Source: Apteryx mantelli (taxonomy: Eukaryota; Chordata; Aves; Apterygiformes; Apterygidae). From it: a stretch of DNA of 64,000 nt. Below are positions 136 through 53,489 of this stretch, piece after piece (the first letter of the stretch is position 1; each line of letters opens with the position of its first letter). The position numbers and the translations under genes are program-made. The stretch spans positions 62,001 to 126,000 of the forward strand of contig NC_090014.1 of assembly GCF_036417845.1 (NCBI RefSeq), read 5' to 3'. The notes below the pieces were generated by a model that ran no database searches, was not told where the DNA came from, and saw nothing but the letters and a program-made list of their open reading frames with translations.

Positions 136-3100
136 GTAAGCGCCCGCCCGGACGCCTGGGCCCCTTGCGGGGGGGACGGGGGGTGCCCCGGACACCTGGG
201 CCCCTTGGGGAAGGGAGGAGGGGGGTGCCCCGGACACCTGGGCCCCTTGGGGAAGGGAGGAGGGGGGGTGCCCTGGACACCTGGGCCCCTGGAGGAGGGT
301 GGGGGTGGCAGGGGTGGCCCCGGACACCTGGGCCCACCGGGAAGGATGTGGGGTGGAGAAGGGGGTGACTGGGTCCCCTGGGGGGGAGGGGGGTGGCCCC
401 GGACACCTGGGTCCCCTGGGGGGGAGGGGGGTGGATTGGGAGCCTCCGGACACCTGGATCCCCTGGGAAAGGTGGTGAGGTGCCTGGACGCCTGGGTCCT
501 CTGTGGGGCGCCCGGACGCCTGGGCCCCCCTGGGAAGGGTGTGGGGCGGATTGGGGGGGGGTGGTGCCCGGATGCCTGGGTCCCTGGCAGGTGATGTAGG
601 GGGGGGATTGGGAGCCCCCGGACGCCTGGGTCCCCTGGGAGGGTATGGGGTGCCCGGATGCCTGGGTGCTCTGTGGGGCACCCGGACACCTGGGCCCCTG
701 GGAAGGGTGTGGGGCGCCCGGACGCCTGGGTCCCCCCCGTCCCCCCCGGGGGCCGGCGCAGCTGAGCCGGTGATTCAGCTGCTTCCGCCCCCCCCCCCCC
801 CCCGTCAGCACCAGCCTCCGGCTCCAGCCGCCCCCGGACGCCTGGGCCCCTGGAGCGGGGGTGCCCGGACACCTGGGTCCCTGCGAGAAGTGGGGGGGGG
901 TGGCAGGGCCCACCCGGACGCCTGGGCCCCCCCCTCCCCCCCCCGGTGTGTGGGACGCATCCGCCAAAGCGGCTCTGCCACCACCCACCCTCCCCCTCCC
1001 GCCCGGATTAATTTTGGTGCCGCGACGGGGGGGGGGGGGGGGGGGGGTCGTTATTTCGGTCGCGATTAATGCGATTCTCCCTGGGAAACGTCGCTCTGGT
1101 GCGGCAGGGGGAGGGGGGGGGTCCCCGTGGGGAGAGGGCCCAGGCGTCCGGGAGCCCCCGCTCCGCCCCATGACCCCCAGGGACCCCGGCGTCCGGGTGA
1201 TGCTGGTGCCTGGGGGCCCAGGCGTCCGGGGCGGGGGCCCAGGCGTCCGGGGGGGGGGGTGTTCCGCACGGCTGACGCTGGCCCGCAGGCGCAGGGGGCC
1301 GTGGGGAAGGGGCCCAGGCGTCCGGGGGGGGGTGGTGTTCCGCACGGCTGACGCTGGCCCCGCAGGCGCAGGGGGCCGTGGGGGGGGGCCCAGGCGTCCG
1401 GGGGGGGGGGGGGCGTTTTCGGCACGGCTGACGCTGGCCCCGCAGGCGCAGGGGGCCGTGGGGGGGGGCCCAGGCGTCCGGGGGGGGGGGCGTTTTCGGC
1501 GCGGCTGACGCTGGCCCCGCAGGCGCAGGGGGCCGTGGGGAAGGGGCCCAGGCGTCCGGGGGGGGGGGGGCGTTTTCGGCGCGGCTGACGCTGGCCCCGC
1601 AGGCGCAGGGGGCCGTGGGGGGGGGGCCCAGGCGTCCGGGGGGGGGGGGGGCGTTTTCGGCACGGCTGACGCTGGCCCCGCAGGCGCAGGGGGCCGTGGG
1701 GGGGGGGCCCAGGCGTCCGGGGGGGGGGGGTGTTCCGCACGGCTGACGCTGGCCCCGCAGGCGCAGGGGGCCGTGGGGGGGGGGCCCAGGCGTCCGGGGG
1801 GGGCCCAGGGCGTCCGGGGGGGGGGGGTGTTCCGCACGGCTGACGCTGGCCCCGCAGGCGCAGGGGGCCGTGGGGGGGGGCCCAGGCGTCCGGGGGGGGG
1901 GGCGTTTTCGGCGCGGCTGACGCTGGGCCCCGCAGGCGCAGGGGGCCGTGGGGGGGGGCCCAGGCGTCCGGGGGGGGGGGGGGGCGTTTTCGGCGCGGCT
2001 GACGCTGGCCCCGCAGGCGCAGGGGGCCGTGGGGGGGGGCCCAGGCGTCCGGGGCGGGGGGCCCAGGCGTCCGGGGGGGCGGGGGGGCGTTTTCGGCGCG
2101 GGCTGACGCTGGCCCCGCAGGCGCAGGGGGCCGTGGGGGGGGGGCCCAGGCGTCCGGGGGGGCGGGGGGCGTTTTCGGCACGGCTGACGCTGGCCCCGCA
2201 GGCGCAGGGGGCCGTGGGGGGGGGGGCCCAGGCGTCCGGGGGGGGCCCAGGCGTCCGGGGGGGGGGTGTTCCGCACGGCTGACGCTGGCCCCGCAGGCGC
2301 AGGGGGGCCGTGGGGGTGCTCTTCAACGTGGGCACCGAGGACATCGCGCTGGAGGAGCGGGGGGCGGCCGTGAGCGACGGGCGCTTCCACGTCGTCCGCT
2401 TCACCCGCAGCGGCGGCAACGCCACCCTCCAGGTGGACGGGGGCCCCCTGCACGAGCGCTACCCCGCAGGTAGGCGCCCCCCCCCCCGCGGCTCCTATAG
2501 CGCCCCCCATGGGCTCCCTATAGCTCCCTAGGGCTCCTATAGCGCCCCAGAGGCTCCCTGCAGCCCCCGCGGCTCCTATAGCACCCCCCATGGGCTCCCT
2601 ATAGCTCCCTATGGCTCCTATAGCGCCCTCTATAGGCTCCCTATAGCTCCCGATGGCTCCTATAGCGCCCTCTATAGGCTCCCTATAGCTCCCTATGGCT
2701 CCTATAGCACCCCAGAGGCTCCCTATAGCACCCCAGAGGCTCCCTATAGCTCCCTATGGCTCCTATAGCACCCTCTATAGGCTCCCTATAGCTCCCTATA
2801 GCTCCCTATGGCTCCTATAGCACCCCAGAGGCTCCCTATAGGCTCCCTAGGCTCCTATAGCACCCTCTATAGGCTCCCTATAGCTCCCTATGGCTCCTAT
2901 AGCGCCCTCTATAGGCTCCCTATAGCTCCCTAGGGCTCCTATAGTGCCCCAGAGGCTCCCTATAGCTCCCTATGGCTCCTATAGTGCCCCCTGTAGCGCC
3001 CCCCATAGGCACCCTATAGACTCCCTGCATCCCCTATGGCTCCTATAGCACCCTAGAGCCCCCCATAGGCTCCCTATAGCTCCCTAGGGCTCCTATAGTG

Positions 3101-6100
3101 CCCTCTATAGGCTCCCTATAGCTCCCTAGGGCTCCTATAGCACCCCCCCATAGGCTCCCTGCAGCCCCTGGGGCTCCTGTAGCACCCTAGAGGCACCCTA
3201 GAGCCCTCCGTGGGCACCCTATAGCTCCCTAGGGCTCCTATAGCACCCCCCCCATAGGCACCCTATAGGCTCCCTGCATCCCCTATGGCTCCTATAGCAC
3301 CCTAGAGCCCCCCCCTCCATAGGCACCCTGTAGCTCCCTATGGCTCCTGTAGCACCCTATAGGCACCTTATAGTCTCTATGGCTCCTAAAGCGCCATATA
3401 GCTCCCCCCATAGGCACCCTATAGCTTCCTACAGCCCCTGTGGCTCCTATAGCCCCCCCCATAAGTGCCTATAGCTGCCTAAAGCCCCTATGGTTCCTAT
3501 AGCCCCCCCCATAGGTGCTTATAGCTACCTAGAGCCCCTATGGTTCCTATAGCCCCCCCCACAGGTGCCCTATAGCCCTGCCACAGCCCCTATGGATCCA
3601 GAGCCTTCCCATAGGTGCCCTATAGCCCCCCCCAGGTGCCCTATAGCCCCCCCAGGTACCCTATAGCCCCCTGGCCCTATGGTTCCTATAGCCCCCCATA
3701 GGCACCCTATAGGCCCCCGCAGCCCCTATTGCGCCCTATGGACCGCGGCAGCCCCTATAGCCCCCCCCCCGGAGCCCTATAGCCCCCGTGGCCCCGGGGG
3801 GTCCCGGCCCCGGCGCTCGTCCCCGCTCTAATTAGCGGCCGCGGCCCTAACGAGGGCCCCTCCCCCCCCCGCCCCCCCCGCAGGCAGGGTCAGGCCGGGG
3901 GCCCAGGCGTCCGGGCGGCCCCTAACGCCCCCCTAACGCCCCCCTCCCCCCCCCCGGGGAACCTAAACGCCGCATAAACCCCCCGAAACGCGGGCACGGC
4001 AAGGACACGGCAAGGACACGCCACGGTCACGCCATGGCCATGGCTCGGTCACGGCACAGTCACGGCTCGGACACGGCACGGACATGGCAAGGTCCTGCCG
4101 GGAACACGCCACGCTCGTGCCGTGATCGTGCCGTGCCTTGCCAGGGTCACGCCGTGGTCACGCCGTGTCACGCCAGGGTCACGCATGTGGGTGCGTGGCG
4201 TGCGTCTCCTCACCCCCCCATCACGCCGTGGTTACGCCTGGCCCCGCGTGTCTCCTCGCCCCGGTCACGCGTGCGGATGCGCGACGCGTGTCCGTCTCCT
4301 CTCCCGCGGCCCCTCTGCGGTCACGCCATGGTCACGTGTGACGCGTGTCCGTCTCCTCGCCCCCATCACGCCGTGGTCACACGTGACGCGTGTCTCCTCC
4401 TCTGTGGTCATGCCGCAGTCACGCGTGACGTGTGTCTCCTCTCCCGTGGCCACGCATGACACGCATCTCCTCTCCCGTGGCCCCGGCGCGTGATGCGCGT
4501 CTCCTCTCCCGCGGTCACACATGACACATGTCTCCTCTCCCTTGGTCACGCGTGACGCGCGTCTCCTCTCCCTTGGTCACACGTGACGCGTGTCTCCTCT
4601 CCCATGCTCCCGCCGCGGTCCCGCCATGCTCCTGTGCGACGCGTGTCTCCTCACCCCATCACGCCATGGTCACGCTCTGGCCCTGCGTGACGCGTGTCTC
4701 CTCTCCCTTGGTCACACGTGACGCGTGTCTCCTCTCCCACGGCCCTGCCGCGTGACACGTGTCTCCTCTTCCACGGCCCCGGTGCATGACACGTGTCTCC
4801 TCTCCCACGTGACGCGTGTCTCCTCTCCCTTGGTCACACGTGACACATGTCTCCTCTCCCGTGGTCACGCCATGGTCATGCCACGGCCACGCCATGGCCC
4901 TGCGTGACGCGTCTCCTCTCCCTTGGTCACATGTGACACGTGTCTCCTCTCCCGCGGCCCCACGTGACACGTGTCTCCTCTCCCGTGGTCACGCCATGGC
5001 CCCGCGTGACGCGTGTCTCCTCTCCCTTGGTCACATGTGACACGTGTCTCCTCTCCCGCGGCCCCACGTGACACGTGTCTCCTCTCCCGTGGTCACGCCA
5101 TGGCCCCGCGTGACGCATGTCTCCTCTCCCTTGGTCACATGTGACACGTGTCTCCTCTCCCGCGGCCCCACGTGACACGTGTCTCCTCTCCCGTGGTCAC
5201 GCCATGGCCCCGCGTGACGCGTGTCTCCTCTCCCTTGGTCACACGTGACACGTGTCTCCTCTCCCTTGGTCACACGTGACACGTGTCTCCTCTCCCGCGG
5301 CCCCATGTGACACGTCTCCTCTCCCGTGGTCACACGTGACGCGTGTCTCCTCTCCCACGGCCCCATGTGACACGTCTCCTCTCCCTTGGTCACACGTGAC
5401 ACGTGTCTCCTCTCCCGCGGCCCCATGTGACACGTCTCCTCTCCCGTGGTCACACGTGACGCGTGTCTCCTCTCCCACGGCCCCGCGTGACGCGTGTCTC
5501 CTCTCCCTTGGTCACACGTGATATGTGTCTCCTCTCCCGCGCTCCCGCGTGACGCGTGTCTCCTCTCCCTTGGTCACACGTGACGCGTGTCTCCTCTCCC
5601 ACGGCCCTGCCGCGTGACACGTGTCTCCTCTTCCACGGCCCCGGTGCATGACACGTGTCTCCTCTCCCACGTGACGCGTGTCTCCTCTCCCGTGGTCACA
5701 CGTGACACGTGTCTCCTCTCCCGCGGTCATGCCACGGTCGCGCCATGGCCCCACATGATGCATGTCTCCCTTCCCTTGCTCCCGTGTGACGCATGTGTCC
5801 TCTCCCGCGGTCACGCCACGGCCCCGGCGTGTGACGCATGTCTCCTTTCCCACGGCCCTGCGTGACATGCGTCTCCTCTCCCTTGGTCACGCGTGACGCG
5901 TGTCTCCTCTCCTGTGGTCACACGTGACACATGTCTCCTCTCCCGTGGTCACGCCATGGTCATGCCACAGCCACGCCATGGCCCTGCGTGACGCGTCTCC
6001 TCTCCCTTGGTCACATGTGACGCGTGTCTCCTCTCCTGCGGCCCCACGTGACGCGTGTCTCCTCTCCCTTGGTCACACGTGACACGTGTCTCCTCTCCCG

Positions 6101-9100
6101 CGGCCCCATGTGACACGTCTCCTCTCCCTTGGTCCCGTGTGACGCGTGTCTCCTCTCCCGCGTGACACGTGTCTTCTCTGCCGCGGTCACGCATGACGCG
6201 TGTCTCCTCTCCCTTGGTCACGCGTGACGCGTGTCTCCTCTCCCGTGGTCCCGCGTGACGCGTGTCTCCTCTCCCGCGGTCCCGCGTGACGCGTGTCTCC
6301 TCTCCCGTGGTCCCACGTGACGCGTGTCTCCTCTCCCGTGGTCACGCCACGGTCCCGCGTGACGCGTGTCTCCTCTCCCGCGGTCCCGCGTGACGCGTGT
6401 CTCCTCTCCCGTGGTCCCGCGTGACGCGTGTCTCCTCTCCCGCGGTCCCGCGTGACGCGTGTCTCCTCTCCCGTGGTCACGCGTGTCTCCTCTCCCGCGT
6501 GACGCGTGTCTCCTCTCCCGCGCTCCCGCGTGACGCGTGTCTCCTCTCCAAGGCAGCGCGGATAGCGAGCGGCTGGCGATTGCCCGGCAGCGCATCCCCT
6601 ACCGGCTCGGCCGGGTGGTCGATGAGTGGCTGCTCGACAAAGGTAACCGGGATCCCCCGGATCCCCCGCCTGGAGCCCCCGGCGCCCCCGCCTCCCCCCG
6701 GCGCCCCCGGCAACGGGATCCCCCGGATCCCTTGGGATCCCCCTGGGAGCAGGGATCCCCCCCCGGGGAAACTGGGATCCCCCTGGGGTAACCGGGATCC
6801 CTCCCAGGGCAACCGGGATCCCCCTGGGGTAACCAGGACCCCCTTGGGGGCAACTGGGATCCCCCCTGGGGCAACTGGAATCCCCCCCTGGGGTAACCAG
6901 GATCCCTCCCAGAGCAACTGGGATCCCCCTGGGGTAACCAGGACCCCCTTGGGGGCAACTGGGATCCCCACTGGGTAACTGGGATCCCCCCTGGGGTAAC
7001 CAGGACCCCCTTGGGGGCAACTAGGATCCTCCCAGGGCAACTGGGATCCCCCCTGGGGCAACTGGGTTCCCCCCAGGGCAACTGGGATCCCCCTGGGGTA
7101 ACCAGGACCCCCTTGGGAGCAACTGGGATCCCCCCAGGGCAACTGGGATCCCCCCTGGGGTAACCGGGACCCCCTTGGGGGCAATTGGGATCCCCCCTGG
7201 GGTAACCGGGACCCCCCCCGGGGCAATTGGGATCCTCCCAGGGTAACTGAGATCCCCCCCGGGGCAACTGGGATCCTCCCCAGGGTAACTGGGATCCCCC
7301 TGGGGTAACCAGGATCCCCTTGGGAACAACTGGGATCCCCCCAGGGGTAACAGGGATCCCCCCGGGGGAACCGGGATCCCCCCTTTGGGGTGACTGGGAC
7401 CCCCCCCCCCCCTGCGGGCACCCAGCTGCCCCGGGGGCCCAGGCGTCCGGGGGGCCCAGGCGTCCGGGGGGCGCCGCCCCCCCCCCCCGCAGCCCCCCCG
7501 ATCCCCCGCGTCTAACCCGCGTCTAAACCCGCTAACCCCCCCCCCCCCCCCCGCCGCCGCCTCGTTAAAGGGACCCCGCGACCTTAACGGCCCCCTAAAC
7601 CGCGCTTAACCCTTTGAGTGCCGCCGCGGGCCTAAAATTCGCATAAACGCTGCTAATAACCCGCCGCTAACGAGCACTAACAACGAGCACTAACTAACGA
7701 GCACTAACTAACGAGCGCCGCCCTGCTCCGATCCGCTCCGATCCGATCCGATCCGATCCGCTCGCTCCTCCTTGGGCGCCCGGCGCCGCTGAGCACCCGC
7801 GAGCTCGTGGCACGGGGCTGCCGCGGTGCTGGGAGCGCACGGGGGGGGCGAGCGCACGGGGGTGAGTGTGCACGAGGGTCGTGTGTGCACGAGGGGTGAG
7901 TGTGCACGAGAGTCGTGTGTGCACAAGGGTGACGTGTGCACGAGAGTCGTGTGTGCACAAGGGTGACGTGTGCACGAGGGTCGTGTGTGCACAGGGATCA
8001 CGTGTGCATGAGTTGTGTGTGCATGAGGATCACGTGTGCACGAGGGGTGAGTGTGCACGAGTCGTGTGTGCATGAGGATCACGTGTGCATGAGAGTCGTG
8101 TGTGCATGAGAGTCATGGGTGCACGAGAGTCGTGGGTGCACGATGGGTGTGAGTGCACAAGGATCACGTGTGCACGAGAGTCGTGTGTGCATGAGGATCA
8201 CGTGTGCACGGAGGTGAGTGCACGAGAGTTGTGTGTGCATGAGAGTCGTGTGTGCACGAGGATCACGTGCACGAGAGTCGTGCGTGCACGAGGATCACGT
8301 GTGCACAAGGGCTGTGAGTGCACAAGGATCACGTGTGCATGAGAGTCGTGTGTGAACAAGAGTCGTGGGTGCACGACAGGTGTGAGTGCACAGGGCTGCA
8401 TGTGCAGGGGATCTCGTGTGCACGAGGGCCGTGTGGGCACGAGGATCATGCGTGCACGAGGGCCATGAGTGCACGACGGGGACGTGTTTGAGGGCTGTGT
8501 GTGCACGAGAGCCGCGTGTGCATGAGGGCTGCGAGCGCGCACAAGCGCATGTGCACGAGGGCCACGAGTGCACCAGGGCTGTGTGCGCATGAGAGTTGTG
8601 CGTGCGCACAAGGGTTGTGCGTGTGCACGGGGGGTGACGTGCACGAGGGCTGTGTGTGCACCAGGGTTGTGAGCACACAAGAGCTGTGTGTGCACGAGGG
8701 TCATGACTGCGCAAGGCGAGTGTGCATGAGGGTTGTGTGAGCGCACCAGGGCTGTGTGTGCACAAGAATCGTGTGTGCATGAGGGTGACGTGTGCATGAG
8801 GGTTGTGTGTGTGTGTGTGTGTGCACGAGGGCCGTGTGTGCACGAGGGTTGTGTGTGCACGAGGGTGACGTGTGGTCGTGCGAGGAGCGTGCGAGGGCGC
8901 CGTGCACGCCTGCCCCCCCCCCTTGGCACCACCCCGTGCCACGAGCTCGCCCGGCCTCAGCCGGCCCCGCGCACCAGCGCCGGCCTCGCACGGGACCGGA
9001 GCGACCGGGGGGTCGCGCGCACAAACCAAACCAGCGTCGCTAAACAGGCACTAACGAGGCCACGTTCGTTTGCCCCACCACCACCACCACCCCCCGCCGC

Positions 9101-12100
9101 TAACGAGGCCCGGCCCCCCCCACCCCCCCCCTGCCGGCCCGAACGAACCAAAACCGGCCGAACCGAGCCCGAAAGCCCAGTGCAACTCAGAGGGTTAAAA
9201 GGTCTCTGGGACGGAGCCGCGTTGGGTCCCTTTAACGTGCGCCCCGCGGCGCCCGCGCGGGGACACGGGGGGGGGGGGGGACACGGGGGGGGGGACACGG
9301 GGGGGGGATGTGGGGGGGGCACGGGCTGCACGCGGCGGCGGGGGGTGGGGGGGGGACCCTCGTGCGAGAGGCGCACGGGAGGCGCGCGAGGCCCCCACGC
9401 AATGCGCGCCGGGACGTTGCCCGTGCGACGGGTGCATGCGAGGCCCCCGCGCAGGGCGCACGGGGACCCTCGTGTGATGCACGCCAGGGCCCTCGTGCGA
9501 CGGGTGCATGCGAGGTCCCCAGTCACACGGGGACCCTTGTGTGATGCACAGCAGGACCCTCGTGCGATGCACACCAGGACCCTTGGGTGACGGGTGCACA
9601 CCGGGACCCTTGTGCGACGCACACCAGGGCCTTTGTGCGACGGGTGCACGCGAGGCCCCTCTTCGACGCGCGCTGGGACCCTCGCACACTGGGTGCATGC
9701 AAAGCCCCCGTTCACGCTGGGACCCTCGTGCGATGCACGCCAGGGCCCTTGGGTGACGGGTGCACACGGGGCCCCTTGTGCGATGCACACCAGGGCCTTC
9801 GCGTGATGGGTGCACACCAGGACCCTCATGCGATGCACACGGGGACCCTCGTGTGACGGGTGCATGCAGAGCCCTGTTCACACTGGGACCCTTGTGCGAC
9901 GCACACCAGGGCCCTTGGGTGACGGGTGCACGCGAGGCCCCTCTTTGACACGTGCCGGGACCCTCAAGTGCCAGGTGCATGCAAAGCCCCCATTCGTGCT
10001 GGGACCCTCGTGCAATGCACACCAGGGCCTTCGTGCGATGGGTGCACACGGGGCCCCTCGTGCGATGCACATGGGGACCCTTGTGTGATGCACACCAGAG
10101 CCCTTGGGTGACGGGTGCACACCGGGACCCTCGTGCGATGCACACGGGGCCCCTCGTGCAACGCACGCCAGGACCCTCGCGCGATGGGTGCATGCAAAGC
10201 CCCCGTTCACACCGGGACCCTCGCGCGATGCACGCCAGGACCCTCGTGCGATGCACGCCAGGACCCTCGTGTGATGGGTGCATGCAAAGCCCCCGTTCAC
10301 ACCGGGACCCTCGCGCGATGCACGCCAGGACCCTCGCGCGCCGGGTGCACGCCGGACCCCCCCCCCCCTCGCGCGCCCCCCCCCCGGTGCGAGGCGGCCG
10401 CGGTGCGAGCCCCCCGCCGCCGTGCGCTCTCCCCGCAGGCCGGCAGCTGACCATCTTCAACAGCCAGGCGGCCGTGCGGGTGGGGGGCCGCGACCGGGGC
10501 CGCCCCTTCCAGGGGCAGCTCTCGGGCCTCTACTACAACGGGCTCAAGGTGCTGGCGCTGGCGGCCGAGGGGCACCCGCGCGTGCGCCTCGAGGGCGACC
10601 TGCGCCTCGTGGGCGAGCCGCCGCCCCCCCCCGCCGCGCCGCCGGGGGCCACCGCCGCCCCCCCGGACATGGCCACCACCATCATGGAGACCACCACCAC
10701 CATGGCCACCACCACCACCCGCCGCGGGCGCTCCCCCACCCTGCGCGACACCGTGGCCCAGGTGCGCCCCGACGCGCCGACGGCGGGGGCGAGGGGGGGC
10801 GAAGGGGGGCGGGACGCCTGGGCCCCTGCTTGGGGGGGGGGCAGGATGCCTGGGCCCCTCTGGGGGGGGGGTGAGGGGGGCGGGACACCTCGGTCCCTCG
10901 GGGTGGGGACAAGGGGGGGGCAGGACGCCTGGGCCCCTTGGGGGGGGATGAGGGGGGCAGGACGCCTGGGCCCCTGCTGGGGAGGGGGACAAGGGGGGCA
11001 GGATGACTGGGCCCCTCCTGGGGGACCAGGGGGGACACCTGGGCCCCTGCTGGGGGGGGGGGCAGGATGCCTGGGCCCTTCTGGGGGGGGGACGGGGGGG
11101 TGGGACACCTGGGCCCCTGCTGGGGGGGGGCAGGATGCCTGGGCCCCTCTGGGGGGGGTGAGGGGGGCGGGACACCTCGGTCCCTCGGGGTGGGGACAAG
11201 GGGGGGGCAGGACGCCTGGGCCCCTTGGGGGGGGGATGAGGGGGGCAGGACGCCTGGGTCCCTCTGGGGGGGGGGATGAGGGGGGTTGGGACGCCTGGGC
11301 CCCTTGTGGGGGTGGGACAAGGGGCGCAGGATGCCTGGGCCCCTCCTGGGGGACCAGGGGGGGCACCTGGGCCCCTCTGGGGGGGGGGAACAGGGAGGCA
11401 GGACACTTGGGCCCCTGTTTTGGGGTGGGGGGGGGCAGGACACCTGGGACCCTCTGGGGGATGGGGGGGGGCAGGATGCCTGGGCCCCTGTTTTGGGGGG
11501 CATCTAGGTCCCTTGGGGAGGGGGACAGGACACCTGGGCCCCTTGGGGGGGGCATGTGGGTTCCTTTGGGGGGGGGGGGCAGGATGCCTGGGCCCCTGAG
11601 GGGGTGGGGCAGGACACCTGCGTCCTTTCTGGGGGGGGGCATTTGGGTCCCTTGGGGGGGGGGGAGGACACCTGGGTCCCTTTGGGGGTGAGGCAGGATG
11701 CCTGGGCCCATTGTGGGGGGGGGGGGGAATGGTGGGGGGGGCCCCGGACACCTGGGCCCACAGAGAGGGGGAACAGGGGCACCCGGACGCCTGGGCCCCC
11801 TGGGGGGGGACAGGGGGGAGCCGAGGCGCGCGGGGGCCGGGAGGGGCCCCGGTGTCCGGGCTGAGGCGCTGCCCCCCCCCCCCCCCAGAACACGGACGAT
11901 CTCCTGGTGGCGTCGGCCGAGTGCCCCAGCGACGACGAGGACCTGGAGGAGTGCGAGCCCGGCACAGGTGGGTGCTCGTGCGCGGGGGCCGCCGGGGCCG
12001 CCGGGGGCTGCTGGGGCCGGGGCGGCGCCTCGCACGCCCCTCGCACGCCCCTCGCACGCCCGGTACGCGGGGGGGCCGTGCGCTGCGGCGCCGCCTCCTC

Positions 12101-31149: not shown

Positions 31150-34100
31150 ACACGGAAACCCGCAGCCGCACAAACACCCCTTTTTGTGGCTTTTCGCAGT
31201 ATTTAACCCTTCCCCTGCTGCCCGGCTCCGGGGCCCTGCTGCGGCGCAGCGAATCGGGGCGGCTTTTGAGCAGGGTTTTGCCGCATTCGCGCACCCGCCC
31301 CCAGCGCCCGCTGCAGCACCGCGCTGCAGAAACCCCAATTCCTGCGGGGCGTTTTTAAGGAGGAAAAGCAAGTTAGTGAAAGTTTTGTGCTTTGTAAACA
31401 CTTTTGAGAGGAATCTGTAAATGTTATCGGTGCTGCCGGGCAACAAATGTAAAACAGGGGCCCTGAAACCCACCAGGTGAGGGACAAACTGGGGGAAAAC
31501 AGTAAATATTTTGGCAAAGTCGCTTTGTTTGGTTTCCCAGAAAGGAAACAGCCAGGAAACGCCGTTTGTTCCCCGTTTCCTCTGCACTGTCTGGGGGGGG
31601 GAGGGCACCGGCCGGGCCCTTCCCCCTGGCCAGGCCCCTTAGGGGTGAAAATTTATGGAAAAACAACGCTTTTTCCCTTGATGGGGCACAACCAGGGTGA
31701 GATTTTTGCAGTATTTGGGATAGAAAACAAAAATTTGGGATAAAAAACAGCCTGAGAGAAAGGGGGGGGGGACATACTCTCAGCGCTGCTTTCTGAGGTA
31801 AAAAGCAGGGGGGGGAAGGGTTTTTTGGCCGCTGTGGGTGGGGATTTTGTGGCATTTGGGACAAACGCCACAGCCTACCTTGGGGGAGGGGGGCACACGC
31901 TCAGCGCTGCTTTCTGAGGTAAAAAAAAACAGGGGGAAAGGGGCTTTTTTCTACCGCTTTCCCGCTGGGCCGGGGGGGGGGGGGGCCCGCGCAACGGCCG
32001 ACAGCCGAGCCCGGAGGGGAATTTGCCCTTTCCTGGCCCCTTTGGGGCACGGCAGAGGCGGCCAGGCGCGGGAGAGCAGGCGCCTTGCTGCCGCCACCCC
32101 CCCCCCCCCCCCGTCACCACTGCGGCAAGCTGCCCCCGGTGCGGGGGGGGGGGGCTGCTGCGCATGCGCAGTTCCGCACTGCGCCACCAGCAGCCGCGGC
32201 GGGGCGGCGGTTGCGGCCGGTTGGAGCCGGTTAGAACCGGCCGCGGAGCCGCCTCACGTGGCGGATCCCTCCGCGCCGCCGTCACCGCCCCCCAAAATCG
32301 CTAATTGGGGCCTTTATGGGGGTGGCGAGGGAGGCGATAAAGTGAAAAACTAGAGTTTTGGGGGGGGGAGGGGGCGCATATATGTGGCACCTTTTTTTAA
32401 GGGGCGCTTTGGTCTGCCTGGATTAAAGGCAGCTGGGGGGGGATCTCGGAGGTGTAATCCCCCCCCCCTTTTAGGGTAATTTTGCTGTGAAAAAATCATT
32501 AAAAACGCTCTTTTGGGAGGGGAGGGCAGATGAGGAGGAAATGGCGCGTTAATGAATCAAATCGGGTTGATAAACGGGGGGTTTCACCCCAGGATCGACT
32601 CAAAAACTGTCTCTGTGAGGGGTGAACCCCCATTTCGGGGGCTGAAGATGGGAAATATGGACAAAAAGGAGCCGAAATGCCCCCTCACTGTCTTGGCGAT
32701 GATTTTTTTGAAGCGTTGCCTGGAGTTCTGTATTAAATAACGTGTTTTCAGTCGGTATCCAGCAACCAAACATGGCTAAATCAGCCTGGAAGAGATGTTG
32801 GACACAAAGGCTCAATGAGGGCGAAAATTTCCACCCGGAGCAAGATGGAAACAGCCTCGTTCAAGCTGATTTTGAGGAGATTTTAAAAGCATCCAGGAAA
32901 AACTGAGCGTTTCCATCCAATCCCTTCCCCACCACCACCTTTGAGACAGGAAGGCAAAAAAAAAAAAAAAGCTTTTGCTGAAAATTTCCATCACGCAGCA
33001 GGCGGCTGAATGTTTCCTGCCGCCGCTGCCCCCTTCCAGATTGACCATTCAGATGCAAAACCCCCCAAAAGAGCGCTGAACGGGCCGAATTGCTGGAAAA
33101 AGGCAGCTTGTGGGGTGCTGGTGCAGCCAGCGATTGCAACCCCTCGCTGCCTCCTCCCCGATAAAATAAATTTAAAGGCTGCTCGTTTGAGGGAGGGTTT
33201 TTCACGGGTAAAAAAAAAAATCCAAAAAATGCGCAAATCATTGGTTACAGCAGAGCTGTTGCAGTAATCTTGCAAATTAACTGCGAAATGCTTCCCATTA
33301 CCGACGTGAAGATTCCCCCCCGACTTTGAAACACTTAAAAAAATAAAAATAAATAGAGCTACGAGAGTCTTAATCGCAAAATATTCCAGCACAATCTTCT
33401 CCCGCAGGAAACGCCCTGGAAAAACAGGCAGGGGCCGAAACAGGTCCGGCGCCCTCGTTAAAGCGCTTGGGCGATGCGTCAGCGCGTCGCGGGCAGCGGC
33501 TGCCTCGGCCCGGCCGGGCGCCTTAATCACACGTTTCCCCCGTTTTTGGGGACGTCCGGGTGACACAGGCCGCGCGCGGTGGCAGCGCGTGACGCCCGGC
33601 CGGCGATCGCCGAGGCGAACAGGGGCCCCTGGCAGGAAATGCCGCTGACGGGGATTTTTCCTCGCTGATGAAATTCGGCACCACCTCCGGAGCTTCCTGA
33701 AATTAGGACGTTTGGGTGCCCTTCCCGGGGGGGAAAAAAATAGTAATAAAAAGAAGGTTTGCTCGGCTTTGCAGGGAGACACAGGGCACAAGGGGAAGTG
33801 CTTTTTCGGGGGGGGGATTTTCACCCCAAAAGGCCCACAGAGACCCAGCCCGGCCCATGGGCTCAAACCTCATCCAAGGATTTGTGCCCATGTGGATTCA
33901 GGAGCCATTTTCAGAGGAAAACCACCCCCCCCCCCCATGCCAGCACCGTGACACAGCAAAAAGCAAACGGGGCAAACCACCTGAAAAAAAAAAAAAAAAC
34001 CAAACCACATTAAAAAAAGCTCCAGCCGCCTCGCTTTGAGCAGGGGTTGTATTTTCATGGGGGGGGGGGGGGGTCGCGGTTCTGCCCTCTCCCCTCGGTG

Positions 34101-34330
34101 AAAAATTACAGATCGGTGGCAAATTTTGCCGTTTTCACGCCCGCAGCGAGCTGCCGAGCGCCTTTTCCTCCCCATTTTGTGGTGGGGGATGGTTGGGGGG
34201 GGGGGGAACGAGCGGCAAGGCATGATTTTAAATTAATTTTTTTTTTTTGGTGGCATTCCAGGGACTATTTTGTTTTCCGGGCCGGCCTCGCCCCGCGCGG
34301 AAGCAGCCGGCAGCCACGGCACCGCCGCAG
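31150..34330 (+). other. Non-repetitive AT-richer region upstream of MALAT1
   Basis: About 3.2 kb of largely unique sequence, unlike the flanking arrays. It contains a tandemly duplicated segment (about 31765-31830 and 31885-31950, sharing CAGCGCTGCTTTCTGAGGTA), a CpG-rich core (31960-32290) with a perfect NRF1-type palindrome at 32159-32170, and poly-A/T tracts. No long conserved ORF. In human, NEAT1 occupies this interval between FRMD8 and MALAT1, but I recognise no NEAT1 sequence here. Confidence 0.6.
32159..32170 (+). promoter_or_regulatory. NRF1-type palindrome TGCGCATGCGCA
   Basis: A perfect NRF1 consensus inside a CpG-rich 300-bp island (31960-32290) in the interval before MALAT1, suggesting a promoter of an unidentified transcript or a CpG-island enhancer. 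Confidence 0.55.
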
Positions 34331-34338
34331 TTATAAGG
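34331..34338 (+). promoter_or_regulatory. MALAT1: MALAT1 TATA box
   Basis: TTATAAGG lies about 30 bp upstream of the segment aligning to the human MALAT1 5' end. Human MALAT1 likewise has a TATA-type element (CTATAAATA) at this position. Start site inferred near 34361. Confidence 0.7.
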
Positions 34339-34360
34339 CGCCGCGGGGCCGGAGCGGCCC

Positions 34361-37300
34361 AGAGCCGCAGGGAGCAGCCAGGGAGGCAGCGCAGGGGCTC
34401 GGCAGGGCCGGGGGCTGGCTAGCGTCTTCCGAGCAGAAACAGCCCCAAAAAAAACTAAAATACAAATTATAGCTTAAAATCTTTAAAAAAAAATTAGACC
34501 TAACTAGGGTTCGCTCTTAAAAAAAAAAAAAAAAGCAATTAAACGCTTTTAGCAGAGGAAATGCGAAGATTTTTACGCGAAGATTTAAAAAAAACACGCG
34601 AGGCAATTGGAAGAGAAGAGACGAAGGACGAAAGCGGGAGCCGCTAGGTTCGGGAGGGTGAGCGGAGGTTTGGGTAAAGGATGGAAGGAAATCGGGGCTT
34701 TTCACAAGCCTGCGCGAGGCGTTTTTTTTTAACCGTTGGAAGAGAGGAAGCCTCCCAAAAAAAAAAAAAAAGCAGTTAAGATAAAATATTAAATTTTATT
34801 TAAAAGAAAGATAGAAGATGATGTAGAAAAAAGGAAGATTAATTGAAAAGAGAAAATAAATTTTGAAGAAAAGAAAAACCAAGAGTGTAAGCGAAGATAT
34901 ATTTAGAAGCAAACAAGACAAGCTTAGAATTGAAGATAAATTTTGTAAAAGAGGATCAAGGGAATTAAAAAAAAAAAAAAAAAGGAGCTTGAAGAGCGAT
35001 TTTGGTCCCGGACTCGGCTTCATGCCGGTTCGGGACAAGGAAGCGCAAAACTAACCCGGTTTTTTGGCCGGTTTCAAAGCGCTGGCGGGCGGAGAGTCTG
35101 CTTCATGCAGCGAAAAGCCGAAGAGAGGAAAACCAGAGGTTATAACTTAAAAAAAAAAAAAAAAAAAAAGGCAAGTTGAGGTTTTATAAGAAAACGTTTA
35201 GGAGCCTTACAGAAGGTAGAAACAAAACGAAGGTTGGAAGATTTTCTGTGCAAGAGAGGCTACTTTTAGAAGAGAGAAGGTTTCTTTTAATATTAAAGGC
35301 AGAAGGCAACTTAGAAGAGGAGCGAAGAAGAGAGAAGGGGAGTTCAGAGGTTTAAAGAGGAAGATTTAAAAAATATAAACATGCCTTATAGGCATCGGGT
35401 CGCTTGCACCCTGGTTACAGAGCTAGTAGAAAAGGCAGGAGGAAAAGCTATATGAAAAAAACAGGACTTTATACGTTAAAAAAATTCCTAAGGCTTGCGA
35501 AGCCTTTAATTATCTCTAATTACTGCTAATGCCATATTGGATGCGAGCAGAAGGAATATTTTCAAGCTCTTAAACGAGCTCGATGTGCTGGACTGAGAGA
35601 AAAACGATCAAAAAAAAAAAAAAAAAGCTGTATTTTGAGCAAAGGCATAGCAAAAAAAAAAAAAAAGGAAAAAAAAAATATATAAAAACGTAGCCGGGAA
35701 AGGATTTCCCTGGTGGCCCGATGGCCTGAGGAGGCGGCAGGACACCGAGGCAGGACCGCGAGGAGCCGGCGGTGAAGCTAGAGAGAAAATGTAGAAAAGC
35801 CAGTGGAAATTGGTGTGAAGCTAGAGGCGAAATAAAAAAGAGCCAGTGGAAATTGGTGAAGCTAGAGGCGAAATTGAGAAAGAGCCAGTGGAAATCGGTG
35901 AAGCTAGAGGCGAAAATTAAAAAGAGCCAGTGGAAATCGGTGAAGCTAGAGGCGAAATTGAGAAAGAGCCAGTGGAAATCGGTGAAGCTAGAGGCGAAAA
36001 TTGAGAAAGAGCCAGTGGAAATCGTGAAGCTAGAGGCGAGAGAGGCAGAAGCCCCCGAAAGCGGAGCCGGTGGCGGCGCCGTTCCCGGAGCACCTTGGCG
36101 AAGGCGAAAGCTGAGCGACGCCGGCAGTAATTTGCCCCCCACCCTCGGCCCGGGGAGCCGCGGTAACCGCTTCCGCCCCCGATTCCGGGGGTTTTTCCCC
36201 CCAATCCTTTTCCTCCCGCGCGGGGGTCCGGGGTGGTTGTGGTGGTGCGGGGGGGGCCGTGGCGGGGGGGGGGGGCAGGTTTTTCTCTTTTCAGGCCTAA
36301 CGTTCGCTCACGGCATCTTGCCCCGAAGCCGCCCGCCGCCGGCCCCCCCGCTTGGCGCCGGCCCCTACGGCCGCGTTGCCGCAATATTGTCCCCCCCTCC
36401 CCCCCAATGTGTGACCGCCGCAGGGGACAGGAAGCCACCTAATTAAAAAAAAAAAGCAAAAAATACCCCCCAAAAGGCATCGCCGCGCTCGCCGCAGCTG
36501 TAAATACCGTAGGTAACGCGTACCGCCACCCGCTCTTCATAGTAAGTGAGAATCTGTGTTGTTTTGTTTCTGTTTCTCCTCCCGACCCCCCCCCACCTTT
36601 TTACCCCATTTTGGGAAAGAAAAAAGAAAATGTTTTATTTTCCTTTTGCGGGGGGAGGTGGGGGGGGCAAAACATGTCCAGTCTTTTTCCCCCTTAGGTG
36701 TGTGGCTAAAAGAGCCTAGAACCAGACGACGAGAGAGGTGTGACAATGTAAAAGGAAAAGCAGACAAACAAAATGGGATAATAATGATAAGGAAAAGCGA
36801 GCCAGTCTCAGGAGATGTGTGTGTATATAAGGAAAAAGGAGAAAACACAAACAAAACCAGACAAACAGCCCGGCGCGTGTTGCGGGCAGTGGTTAGCGAG
36901 CCGCGGCGCCCCAGAGAAACGCAGCGTTGTTGTGCTTCTGCTTTTGCTAATTCGGCCTCTTTTCGGAAGTAAGCCCTTTCCGTTTCCTTGCTGTCGTTGT
37001 TGCTGGTTTTCCTCTTTAAAAGGTGCCGCGTTTCGGGGAAGCGGAGGGAGGGGGGGGGACGAGCAAGCGGTGTCTTGTACCGAGGGGATTGGGGGGGGGG
37101 GAAGGCGTAAAAATGGGCTTTTTCCGGACTTTTGGCAGACGCTAGAGCCCCGCGCGGGCTGGGTTAGCAGGGTGTTTGTGCCGCGCGGGCGGTTTAATTT
37201 GGAAGAAAAAGGAGAGTTTAAGCCCAAGCGGAGTCGGAGAGAGGGAGCACAGCTCGCGTTGAGTTCGGTCGTCCCCTAAGGAGCCGTTCGGAAAAGCTGG

Positions 37301-39243
37301 GTTAGTCCCGGACCGCCAGTTAAGTGTCTGCTGGGGGGGAAAAAAAGCCTAAATTCACCCCAAACCCCCGAGGGGCTCGTGGTGCGCTTGTCGGCGGGGG
37401 CAAATGCTTTGCAGGGAGGATGGTTTGTTTTGTGGGGGGGGGGAGGGGGGCGTAACATGATGTATTTTCAGGTTTTCTCCACAAACTGCCAAAAAAACGC
37501 AAAAAACAAAAAAAGTAAGTTTAGGAATGAGAGAGAGAAACAATACAAAAAAAAAACAGGAAAAAACTAACCCAAACTATAATCAAAATCCTCAGCATCG
37601 ACTTTGGCAAGTAACGCTCGGCTTGAGAGGGCGGCCGGGGGGGGCGGCGCGGGCGCAGGCAGGCGGAAAGGGGGGGAAAAAGGAGGGAAAAAGGGGCAGG
37701 AGGCGCCGCGGGCTTTGCGGGAAGCAGCTGGCAGTTGGGGGCTCCTTTCCGGCGGGTTTTTATCCCCCCCCTCCTTCTCCGAGGTTTTCAGCTCGCTCAG
37801 CGCCACCGTCGCCGAAAAGCCCCGCCGGGGGGTCGGTGGGGCGCGCGCGCGGGGGGCTCGATCGCTCGCTCGCTCGTGGGCCGTGCCGGTGTCCCGCTGC
37901 TTCCGACGCGCCGCGCTGCCGCCTCGCTAGCGGGAGAAGGGAGGGGGAAAAAACCACGGAAAAGAGCAAAAACGGGCCGCGTGCGGCGTCGCCCCTGCCA
38001 CCCCCCCCCACACCACCCGCCTGCGCACCCCCTTAACGAACCCGCCGCGAGTAATTAACCCCGCGCCGACGGGCCGAGCGGCAGCGACGACGGCAGCAGC
38101 GCGGCGGCGGGAGCCAACTCTGTCTTGCAGCCGTTTTTGCAGATGCTCCTTGCCGGCCCCGAGCGACCCTAAAAACCCGCCGCGGGAGCCGCTGAGCAAA
38201 GGGCGGCCCCGGCCTCGTAGCTCTTAACGACCCGATGGGAGACGCGTAACGAGGTTCCGCCAAAATCGTATCCCCGCACGGAAAGGCAGCCCGATACCGC
38301 GGGCGGACGGCGAGCGCCGAGCGCCCAGGGAGGATTTGAGCTCGGGAAAGGGCCCGACCGGGAGGCCCGGCGGGCGGCCGCCCTTCTCTAACGGCCTAAT
38401 TCTCGTTAACGAACGAGCGAGGAGCTCTGCGGCAGTTGGGCGCAGATTGAGAGCAAATAACGTCAACAAAAAAGCGCCAAAAAAGAAAAATTATATAATA
38501 TGTATATATAAAAAAAAGGCGATGCCTGTTCACACTGCTTCTACCAAAATTGGTGCCGATGTTGCTCAATGGATCGGACGATGGCACCCGAGATACTCGC
38601 AGTCGGCAGTGATTTGGGATCGGCTGTGGCGAGGACGAGGAGGAGATTTGGCGTGTGCCCCCATTGGCCTCAGGCAGGTTTCTCAGCTTAAGAGGAATTT
38701 TGCTTCACTTCATCCAGGAGCCACCAAAAAAACCACCCCAAAATGCAAAAAAAAAAAGGCAAAGAAACCAAAAAGCTAAACCCAGCGCAGGCAGGCGCCT
38801 CCAGCAGATAAGTCCCTCGACGCTCGCTCGTTCGCGCGCGTGCGCCCGGGCGGCCCGCGGTCCCCCGACCCCGCTCCCCGGCGTCCCCCACCCCTCGCCC
38901 CCCTTTTTGGTGGAAACCGCGGCTTTTTGGTTTTTTTGAATTTTAGGAAAAGGCTGGCGCAGCCCCGTTGAATAAAGGTGCCGTACGAGCGGGCCGGTCG
39001 TGTCTGTGTGCCGCGGCGGGGGGGGGGGGGGAGGCCGCCGGCGGATTCCCTTTGATTTTCCAGAGTTTTTCCCTCCACGACCGCCCGAGGTGATCAGGAC
39101 TGAGCGGAAGGAGCCCCAAAATGTCTTTTGTTCAGGCAGGACCGAGCTCGCCGCCGCTGCTGTTTGTTTCTCTCCTCTCTCCCTCCCTCCCGCTCTCTCC
39201 CCTGAGGCAACGTAGGTCCCAGCTCCCTAACGGAGGAATTTGA
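34361..39243 (+). ncRNA. MALAT1: MALAT1 nuclear lncRNA, 5' part (cut by assembly gap)
   Basis: Abundant single-exon nuclear RNA of splicing speckles. Colinear blocks match my recollection of human MALAT1: CAGCGCAGGGGCT just after the start (34387-34399); a purine-rich GAAGA/TTAGAAG region (34590-35400); the GAAGCTAGAGGCG repeat (35773-36040); TTTTTCTCTTTTCAGGC (about 36280-36296); GGCAAAACATGTCCAGTC followed by CTTTTTCCCCCTTAGG (36666-36698); TTGGCAAGTAAC (about 37604-37615); and TTGGCCTCAGGCAGG, then TTGCTTCACTTCATC and CAGATAAGT (38660-38815). Order and strand fit the FRMD8-MALAT1 synteny. No conserved ORF. The human transcript is about 8.7 kb, so about 3.5 kb, including the triple-helix 3' end and mascRNA, is missing in or beyond the N gap. 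Confidence 0.88.
35773..36040 (+). repeat. MALAT1: 42-bp tandem repeat inside MALAT1
   Basis: Six near-identical units of CCAGTGGAAATCGGTGAAGC then TAGAGGCGAAATTGAGAAAGAG, period about 42 bp, preceded by a partial unit. Human MALAT1 has two to four diverged copies of the same element (GAAGCTAGGAA, GCCAGTGCGATTTGGTGAAG), so the repeat is ancestral but expanded and homogenised here. Confidence 0.88.
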
Positions 39244-39443
39244 NNNNNNNNNNNNNNNNNNNNNNNNNNNNNNNNNNNNNNNNNNNNNNNNNNNNNNNNN
39301 NNNNNNNNNNNNNNNNNNNNNNNNNNNNNNNNNNNNNNNNNNNNNNNNNNNNNNNNNNNNNNNNNNNNNNNNNNNNNNNNNNNNNNNNNNNNNNNNNNNN
39401 NNNNNNNNNNNNNNNNNNNNNNNNNNNNNNNNNNNNNNNNNNN
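39244..39443. other. 200-N assembly gap
   Basis: Exactly 200 N, the usual placeholder for a gap of unknown size. It truncates MALAT1 on the left and FERMT3 on the right, so the true missing sequence must be many kilobases. Confidence 0.98.
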
Positions 39444-39497
39444 TCCCCCAAGAGCCCCCTGGCGGCGGCGGCGGGGGGGGGGGGGACGACGACGCAC

Positions 39498-41852
39498 CGA
39501 GGAGGCGGCAGGCGTGGGCGACAGCGCGGCTCACGGGCTGGGCGAAGGAGAGGCGCAGGCGGAGGCGGCGGCGGTTGGGCAGGCGCAGGCGCAGCGGCCG
39601 GTGCTGGGGGGCGAAGCGCAGCGCGGCGTCCGCCCCCACGCCCAGCGCGTCCAGCGTGCGCCCGGGCCGCAGCAGCCACTGCCGCCGCTGCGCCCACCAC
39701 AGCGCGTGGTCCGACCAGTCCCGCTGCACCCCTGCGGCGGGGAGAGGGGTTGGTGGCGACCGTTGCACCCCGAAACGGGGACCTGGGGGGTCTGGGGGTC
39801 CCATTGCACCCCGAAACGGGAACCTGGGGGGTCTGGGGGTCCCATTGCACCCCGAAATGGGAACCTGGGGGGGCTGGGGGGTCCCATTGCACCCCAAAAT
39901 GGGGAATGGGGGGGCTGGGGGTCCCATTGTACCCTGAAATGGGGAATGGGGGATCTGAGGGTCCCATTGCACCCCAAAATGGGGAACGGGGGGGCTGGGG
40001 GTCCCATTGCACCCCGAAATGGGGACCTGGGGGATCTAGGGGTCCCACTGCACCCCAAAATGGGGACCTGGGGGATCTGGGGGACCCATTGCACCCCAAA
40101 ATGAGGACCTGGGGGATCTGGGGGGTCCCATTGTACCCCAAAATGGGGACCGGGGGGTATGGGGGTCCCATTGCACCCCAAAATGGGGACCGGGGGGGTC
40201 CCAGCACAGCGCGTGGTCCGACCAGTCCCGCTGCATCCCTGTGGGGGGAACAGGAGTCAGGGGGACCCGCTGCACCCCAAAACGGGAACCTGGGAGGGTC
40301 TGGGGGTCCCACCACACCCCGAAATGGGACCGAGGGGTCCCAACGCACCCTGCGATGGGGACTGGGGGGGGCCACTGCGCCCCAAAATGGGGACCACAGG
40401 GGTGACGTGGGGGGGACACGGGGACCCCCAGCACCACCACGGGTCACAGGGTGACGTGGGGGGGGACATGGGGGGACACGGGGACCCCCCACGGGCAGCC
40501 CGGGAAGGACCCAGGCGTCCGGGCCCCACCCCGGGGCTATTTATGGCCTGCGGTTCCCTTATCGGCCGGGCCAGGGGGACACGGAGGGGGACACGGGGGG
40601 GACGCGGAAGGGGGGAAACGGGGGGGGGCGGAAGCGGGGGGCGCCGGCAGCCCCCCGATAAGGGCTGGGTGTCCCCAGGCCGCATCCTGCCCCGCCCCCC
40701 TGCCCCCCCCCCCCCGGCGGCCACTCAGTGCCGCGTGATGCCACGCGGGGGGGGGGGGGTGAGCCCAGGCGCCTGGGTCCTCGGGGGGGGCGGATCCAAG
40801 GCTGCCCGGACGCCTGGGCCCTCGGGACACCAATGGCGCCAAGGGCTGGAGCAGAGACCACCCGGACGCCTGGGCCCTCGGGGGGTGGATCCGAGGCCAC
40901 CCGGACGCCTGGGCCCTCGGGGAGATCAGAGCAGGGATGACCCGGACGCCTGGGCCCTCAGGGGTCAGAGCCGAGGCCACCCGGACACCTGGGCACTCAG
41001 GGGTCAGATTCAAGGCCGCCCGGACGCCTGGGCCCTCAGGAAGATCAGAGCAGGGATGACCCGGACGCCTGGGCCCTTGGGGTCAAATCTGAGGCTGCCC
41101 AGACGCTCGGGGATATCAGGGCAAGGACCACCCGGACGCCTGGGCCCTCAGGGGTCAGAGCCAAGGCTGCCCGGACGCCTGGGCCCTTGGGGAGATCAGA
41201 GCAGGGATAACCCAGATGCCTGCGCTCTCAGGGGTCAGATCCAAAGCCACCCGGACGCCTGGGCCCTCAGGGATCGGATCCAAGGCCACCCGGACGCCTG
41301 GGCCCTCGAGGGTCAGAGCCAAGGCTGCCCGGACGCCTGGGCCCTTGGGGAGATCAGAGCAGGGATAACCCAGATGCCTGCGCTCTCAGGGGTCAGATCC
41401 AAAGCCACCCGGACGCCTGGGCCCTCAGGGATCGGATCCAAGGCCACCCGGACACCTGGGCCCTCGGGGGTCAGATCCAAGGCCACCCGGATGCCTGGGC
41501 CCTCAGGGGTCAGATCCAAGGCCACCCGGACGCCTGGGCCCTTGGGGGTCAGATCCAAGGCCACCCGGACGCCTGGGCCCTCGGGGAGGCTGGAAGCACC
41601 AGGGATGCAGGAAGGGGGCGGCGGCGCCGGATGCCTGGGCCCGCGGCAGCGGGGAGGGACGGGACGGGATGGGACAGGGATGGACTCACCAACGGTGTCG
41701 ACGATGAGGAGCATGAGGCCGCCGACGTGGAGGTCGCCGGTGACGCGGAGGGCGAGGGCGCGGGGGGGCGCGGGGGGGCCCTGCTCCACCTCCACCCGCA
41801 GCTCGAAGGAGCCGTCGATGGCTTCGCCGCTCGCCGTCTTCAGCCCCGCCAT
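39498..41852 (-). CDS. FERMT3: Kindlin-3, first two coding exons (3' part lost in gap)
   Basis: Haematopoietic kindlin, a FERM-domain co-activator of integrins with talin. Exon 1 (41852 down to 41690) encodes [20 protein letters not shown] through [11 protein letters not shown]. Exon 2 (39731 down to 39498) encodes [38 protein letters not shown] and VAHACRLL. These align to the kindlin-3 F0/F1 domain (human [38 protein letters not shown]). Phases: 163 nt then 234 nt, GT/AG junctions. Exons 3 onward should lie at lower coordinates and are hidden by the gap. STIP1 lies immediately upstream in the same orientation, as in human. Kindlin-3 rather than 1 or 2 is supported by that synteny and by the MAGxKTASG start. 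Confidence 0.92.
39740..40200 (+). repeat. GGTCCCATTGCACCCCAAAATGGGGACC array in FERMT3 intron 1
   Basis: About nine units of roughly 52-58 bp (CCCATTGCACCCCAAAATGG, then GGACCTGGGGGATCTGGGGG), starting just past the exon 2 acceptor. GCACCC at the acceptor edge (CGCTGCACCCCTG) is echoed in each unit. Confidence 0.88.
40202..40241 (-). pseudogene. FERMT3: Duplicated FERMT3 exon 2 acceptor edge
   Basis: Forty bases nearly identical (two mismatches by eye) to the start of FERMT3 exon 2 and its acceptor, encoding [10 protein letters not shown] before diverging. It sits about 470 bp upstream of the real exon and has its own AG, so it is a decoy acceptor. Confidence 0.85.
40245..40780 (+). other. 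FERMT3 intron 1, degenerate repeats
   Basis: Diverged continuation of the CACCCCAAAATGGGGAC units to about 40400, then GGGGGACACGGGG repeats and one antisense motif-1 near 40510. No exon seen. Confidence 0.6.
40780..41645 (+). repeat. Motif-1 array in FERMT3 intron 1
   Basis: About 20 units of 40-48 bp: CACCCGGACGCCTGGGCCCT followed by CAGGGGTCAGATCCAAGGC. The array runs to about 50 bp from the exon 1 donor. Confidence 0.92.

Positions 41853-43519: not shown

Positions 43520-53489
<9,970 letters not shown>

Follow-up and report, generated by a model that had tools for sequence, protein, structure and literature searches.

This work concerns one alternative exon of the neurexin gene NRXN2, the exon at splice site 4 (SS4, also called AS4), in the kiwi Apteryx mantelli. 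The window we analysed is a stretch of 64,000 nucleotides (nt), bases 62001-126000 of contig C37 (NC_090014.1; 776,894 bp) in a genome of 1.5 Gb. We think it fairly probable that both introns beside the SS4 exon have undergone sequence stuttering, that the exon is still spliced from its true edges, and that the array downstream of it has displaced a splicing silencer. What appears to be new here is the regulatory geometry, with a motif cluster about 900 bases from SS4 and not beside the exon. Positions are those of the window unless the contig is given; signed positions count into the introns from the edges of the SS4 exon.

In the mechanism we propose, local tandem expansion of the kind found on avian dot chromosomes would have taken place in both introns beside SS4, copying the introns' own edges outward: a branch-point-like and pyrimidine stretch upstream, and the first ~15 bases of the donor downstream. 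Recognition of the exon probably still relies on the terminal upstream unit and the true donor, and the decoys in the arrays would be mostly ignored because they lack an AG or lack the AAG exon context. The growing downstream array would then have pushed a conserved UWAA/CUAA silencer, the T-STAR (SLM2) element, from about +13 to about +880. There it may still repress SS4 or may have weakened, and a weakened element would leave the inclusion of SS4 less open to switching and perhaps tied to the length of the array. The features that matter to this argument are as follows.

6553..6642, plus strand: NRXN2 SS4/AS4 alternative exon, 90 bp, in frame, borders G/GC...AAAG/G
4188..6549, plus strand: array upstream of SS4, some 65 units of which most are 31 bp long, a branch-like TGAC plus a TCTCCTCTCC tract in an AG-free unit
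6533..6552, plus strand: presumed working 3' splice signal in the last upstream unit, tract TCTCCTCTCC, then AAG
6643..6658, plus strand: SS4 donor GTAACCGGGATCCCCC, common to the downstream units (15-17 nt matches), donor score 3.12
6714..7407, plus strand: downstream array of ~21-bp GGGGTAACCGGGATCCCC-type units; 6714 is the first partial match, and strict Tandem Repeats Finder (TRF) calls run from 6733
7512..7711, plus strand: UWAA/CUAA cluster at intron +870 to +1069, a candidate for a displaced T-STAR/SLM2 response element
7667..7716, plus strand: small tandem repeat of 14-bp CTAACGAGCACTAA, with ACUAAC..UAAC sites

The identity of the exon agrees with a preliminary description of this DNA. 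The joined LNS6 peptide has neurexin-2-beta (3mw3) as its best match, at 345 bits versus 328 for NRXN1, and by its sequence the exon at 6553-6642 is the SS4 exon of NRXN2.

Arrays made of the SS4 intron edges

Upstream of the exon the merged TRF rows run from 4378 to 6549, and the first core tract stands at 4205. The array holds 65 TCTCCTC cores, 58 exact copies of TCTCCTCTCC and 26 exact copies of GTGACGCGTGTCTCCTCTCC, with the cores spaced mainly at 31 (36 of 64 gaps). It stops 3 nt 5' of the SS4 exon: the last unit is GTGACGCGTGTCTCCTCTCC, then comes AAG, then the exon. The preliminary description had spoken of dozens of pyrimidine tracts in about 2.5 kb of 31-bp units ending in the functional tract, and all of this stands except the length, which is about 2.36 kb, and the uniformity of the units, which are mostly of 31 bp.

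The same description called these units arrays of the exon's own acceptor, and here it was wrong. Base composition would give 53 AG dinucleotides in these 2361 nt, but there are only two (at 4417 and 5969), and 57 of the 58 exact tracts have none within 21 nt; the exception is the last tract, the real one. The units have no AG and are therefore not acceptors, so we reject the array as an acceptor set; they are branch-point-like-plus-tract modules without an acceptor, with TGA directly upstream of 56 of the 58 exact tracts. The SS4 acceptor matches other upstream units over at most 27 bases, and the match stops right before the AAG. The TGAC adenine of the last unit sits at -20, a usable branch distance, and is a candidate branch point. 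Of the two AGs, the one at 5969 follows an exact tract at 5934 by about 25 nt and the one at 4417 follows an inexact tract by about 14 nt; these would be the sole possible cryptic acceptors in the array. Selection against AG is not supported: the unit merely has none, and another AG-free run, of 1235 nt, exists on the contig.

Resemblance to the terminal unit is 91% in the nearest 400 nt and 75-82% farther out, and it falls with distance from the exon (Spearman -0.41, P 0.002, for 57 units that are not independent). This suggests recent growth of the array at its exon end.

On the other side of the exon, the donor GTAACCGGGATCCC and the downstream units have 15-17 bases in common, and it is intron positions +1 to about +15 that match. 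The merged TRF rows are 6733-7407. The array of ~750 bp described earlier as starting at the donor is thus real at about 0.7 kb, except that in its strict form it begins about 90 nt behind the donor. Eight of the nine matches of its DNA in the genome are local and one, weak (78%), is on contig C41, which points to a local origin of the repeats. There are 13 GGTAAC beyond the real donor, in keeping with the dozen or so reported before, and 13 GGCAAY. A simple position weight matrix of donor frequencies gives the real donor a score of 3.1. All 15 GT sites that follow it as far as 7411 score lower: 14 (GTAAC/GTGAC decoys) lie between -0.4 and 2.1 and one is at -8. If the first decoy (6788) were used, the exon would be longer by 145 nt and out of frame, and later decoys would meet an in-frame stop at 6789.

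It could be argued that the arrays are kept because they have a function in splicing, either by competing with the real sites or by sponging up U1 and pyrimidine-tract factors. Each transcript would carry 58 exact tracts and 13 GGTAAC, and the 653 nt that immediately precede the exon form a far better fold than their 20 shuffles (z -10.1), with the final pyrimidine tract mostly unpaired in the folding model. We believe this explanation is very unlikely. Every exact tract but the last is without an AG within 21 nt, the AGs at 4417 and 5969 could give at most a couple of weak acceptors, the decoy donors fall below the real one, and all other mapped NRXN2 introns hold similar arrays.

The UWAA/CUAA cluster behind SS4

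The cluster at 7512-7711 lies about 100 nt past the downstream array and is the densest in the 61-kb gene for both UWAA and CUAA. It holds 8 UWAA (overlaps counted; 7 separate sites) and 12 CUAA, UAAAA included. The 8 UWAA fall within 125 nt and make up 8 of the 33 in the whole gene, which has 44 CUAA in all. Such a density was reached in none of 900 Markov simulations trained on non-array intron (0 of 300 each at first, second and third order); the first-order model yields too few UWAA overall, and the second- and third-order models, which reproduce the UWAA totals, reached a maximum of 6.

A motif scan found no UWAA between +1 and +881 of the SS4 downstream intron, the first being at +882, so the cluster is no more than a candidate for a displaced element. 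The near-exon position that defines the T-STAR element (first 200 nt, about 13 nt behind the exon) is thus empty of UWAA here. The behaviour of NRXN1 in the same genome is different, with UWAA from +2 behind its SS4 exon. We take the genome to hold three KHDRBS genes (KHDRBS1/2/3), T-STAR among them, and we take the ACUAAC..UAAC sites of the small repeat at 7667..7716 to be QKI-type. Two further UWAA motifs lie 5' of the upstream array, at 3964..3978 on the plus strand (-2589 and -2578).

The known element is described in passages of two papers. T-STAR represses Nrxn2 AS4 through six UWAA in a 51-nt region, which in mouse starts 13 nt behind the exon and whose organisation is conserved in bony vertebrates, tortoise included (Ehrmann et al. 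2013, PMC3636136). The element has UUAA, CUAA and UAAAA parts, and in mouse minigenes it is still active when moved to +112, +163, +241 or upstream (Danilenko et al., PMC5397175). As those passages describe it, the likeness to the cluster here is that of a UWAA cluster downstream of AS4 with UUAA, UAAAA and CUAA, in a gene with few other UWAA. The difference is one of distance: the candidate cluster here begins some 870 nt into the intron where the mouse element begins 13 nt into it, and it extends from +870 to +1069 where the mouse minigenes in those passages went to +241 downstream at most. The simplest reading of its position would be that the array grew between the donor and the element.

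Tandem arrays across NRXN2 and in other genes

Flanking arrays are not peculiar to SS4. Using a human NRXN1 protein as guide, we mapped 18 NRXN2 coding exons on C37, the last of which ends EYYV at window 17081; the first exon of NRXN2-beta was also seen, whereas this guide did not reveal certain small alternative exons. The 17 mapped introns come to 56.6 kb, of which 67% is tandem array, and every one of them holds arrays over 41-94% of its length. The median gap between donor and array is 31 nt, and that between array and acceptor is 71 nt. SS4 ranks second closest of the 17 on the acceptor side (3 nt) and 13th on the donor side (90 nt). The SS2 alternative exon (C37:29446-29490), unlike SS4, has array-free flanks of 362 and 243 nt, among the longest in the gene.

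The question is then whether an intron edge resembles its own arrays more than those of other introns. Each 40-nt junction was compared with its own intron and the 16 other mapped NRXN2 introns, the test covering the 18 exons and 17 introns and leaving out the NRXN2-beta first exon and some small alternative exons. The own intron is the best match for 10 of 34 junctions, where 2 are expected (binomial P ~2e-5). The SS4 acceptor probe scores 17.5 in its own intron and 10.5 in the best other, the donor probe 15 versus 12. The likeness of the SS4 splice edges to their own arrays exceeds chance. The preliminary description had thought the double arrangement hard to explain by chance; this holds for the probes, which are best in their own introns, but not for the mere presence of arrays on both sides, given that all 17 introns have them.

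Some junctions go further and copy exon as well. One of them precedes the NRXN2 exon at 2297.

1212..2316, plus strand: array of 77-103 bp units before the NRXN2 exon at 2297, in which the real acceptor is copied 12 times together with 19-20 exon bases

These 12 copies span 1260-2220 with complete AG sites and make a stronger case of splice-site duplication, by exon stuttering, than SS4 does. Elsewhere in the introns of the gene the YIHY acceptor is present in 4 copies with 36 exon bases (C37:47716-48123) and the ELYI donor in 4 copies with 26-29 exon bases (C37:50519-50823), and the copies in the VVYK donor array carry 4-10 exon nt. The proposal that exon edges seed minisatellites is therefore upheld within NRXN2, by the 10 junctions and by three arrays whose copies hold whole splice sites with 19-36 exon bases, and the exon-edge arrays that it led one to expect elsewhere in the genome are present at these three other NRXN2 junctions.

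Outside NRXN2, exon-containing copies were also seen at two junctions of STIP1 (window 43523-51115, minus strand), which has short introns. Its test used 12 junctions, from those 6 of its 12 introns that exceed 120 nt, with borders taken from tblastn ends; exon parts alone win at 5 of 12 (2 expected), and the two junctions score 35 versus 12 and 17 versus 10.

The paralogues look different. We identified NRXN1 by a second SS4 exon, on contig C3, whose peptide equals the NRXN1 one, and we take a gene on contig C4 to be NRXN3. The same arrays were looked for at both and are nearly missing: TRF repeats take up 0.6% of the 20 kb surrounding NRXN1 SS4 and 0.1% of a 32-kb stretch of NRXN3. In the latter (C4:66684001-66716000) no SS4 exon was recognised between the flanking exons (C4:66687482-66713989), in an intron with a 299-N gap.

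All of this matches the sequence stuttering of avian dot chromosomes, and the SS4 contig, at 777 kb and with a window GC of 0.69, may be such a chromosome. In the main text of Hron et al. (February 2026, PMC12954441), stuttering on chicken dot chromosomes extends to repeated exon edges that bring a splice donor or acceptor with them; the repeats are missing from ohnologs on other chromosomes and their lengths vary among individuals. That exon edges seed minisatellites is thus already in print. The likeness to what that text describes lies in NRXN2 introns filled with local repeats (units of ~31 and ~21 bp at SS4), in copies of exon edge and splice site in neighbouring introns beside an intact SS4 exon, and in arrays almost missing from NRXN1 and NRXN3. 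Unlike the exon stuttering described there, the SS4 copies are nearly all intron-side and, upstream, without AG. Neither NRXN2 nor neurexin appears in that main text, and its sections consulted here do not take up the consequence we suggest, that the SS4 arrays may have come between a regulated exon and its silencer. Among the open-access matches listed by a word search, mostly of titles and abstract starts, there was no paper on NRXN2 SS4 in birds and, besides PMC12954441, none on stuttering at splice sites.

Weighing the proposed displaced silencer

Several observations weigh against our account. The cluster near +880 may be an unrelated AT-richer island, seen as it is in one genome, and a random cluster would fall in the SS4 downstream intron ~6-7% of the time by length alone. 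UWAA is rare gene-wide, and composition alone would predict that none stands close to the exon. In the folded model donor and cluster are about 36 steps apart, no closer than with shuffled arrays (24-37). In true exon stuttering the copies include part of the exon, but those of the SS4 arrays hold 0-2 exon bases. Exon parts win at 3 of 34 NRXN2 junctions where 2 are expected (P 0.32), not significant by rank, and STIP1 junctions match their own intron best in 3 of 12 cases where 2 are expected, also not significant. Homopolymer errors are likely in two nearby NRXN2 exons.

Because the SS4 copies are almost without exon bases, SS4 is a case of intron stuttering and not exon stuttering; and because the exon-part count is not significant, the strength of the exon evidence lies in the length of the three exon matches. 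We also considered that array-specific folding brings the element near the exon and rejected it: shuffled arrays do likewise, and the downstream array folds better than 20 shuffles on average with a z of only -2.1. The downstream intron is no more compacted than with shuffled arrays, so we do not claim delivery of the element by folding.

Some will prefer to see here ordinary GC-rich minisatellite drift that touches the exon with no consequence for SS4, the silencer having been lost and the cluster being a chance AT-richer island. Arrays in each of the 17 mapped introns are what drift would give, 33 UWAA in 61 kb is few, and an intron with ~6-7% of intron length makes location weak evidence. 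This does not account for a cluster that is densest for both motifs, includes UAAAA and went unreached in the simulations, nor for junctions that match their own introns far above expectation. We consider drift unlikely, though it is the alternative to be taken most seriously.

The state of the assembly bears on a further explanation, and the exons on either side of SS4 are needed here.

2297..2469, plus strand: NRXN2 exon preceding SS4, with one extra G versus the array copies, frame broken
10439..10761, plus strand: NRXN2 exon following SS4, a mapped coding exon

Apparent extra homopolymer bases, seen by eye, shift the frame in two NRXN2 exons (window 2297-2310 and C37:48233-48425). They are probably base errors, and because they occur in two coding exons, base-level errors are likely in the NRXN2 region. 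Together with 200-N gaps in the contig they could be taken to mean that the arrays are an assembly artefact of collapsed or inflated repeats and polishing errors. We give this very little credence, because the units have diverged in a patterned way and the pattern recurs in other mapped introns; moreover, the repeat structure of PHF8 in chicken was verified by raw nanopore reads, according to the main text of PMC12954441.

The window as a whole has a GC content of 0.69, with TRF arrays over 53% of it. Positions 32001-40000 stand in sharp contrast to the remainder, with lower GC (0.50-0.59) and few tandem arrays (6-8%). Pfam matches mark a FERM-domain exon at 21923 on the plus strand and a leucine-rich-repeat open reading frame at 60616 on the minus strand, which we take to resemble an FLRT gene.

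We return to intron stuttering with a displaced silencer, the reading we favour. Its boldest form, which we think doubtful, is that a silencer conserved since early bony vertebrates moved about 870 nt away with the exon surviving, and that the SS4 choice in this lineage now hangs on a polymorphic array, through its length or its folding, so that individuals would differ in their synaptic splice ratios. Stuttering has been presented as a peculiarity in the structure of bird dot chromosomes, and it is important to realize that in NRXN2 it reaches a deeply conserved splicing switch. If the element is displaced yet working, it would be a natural test of the range of a STAR-protein silencer. If it has failed, the lineage may have lost one of three neurexin SS4 switches. 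And if the bold form is true, array length would act as a naturally occurring dial for a synaptic isoform.

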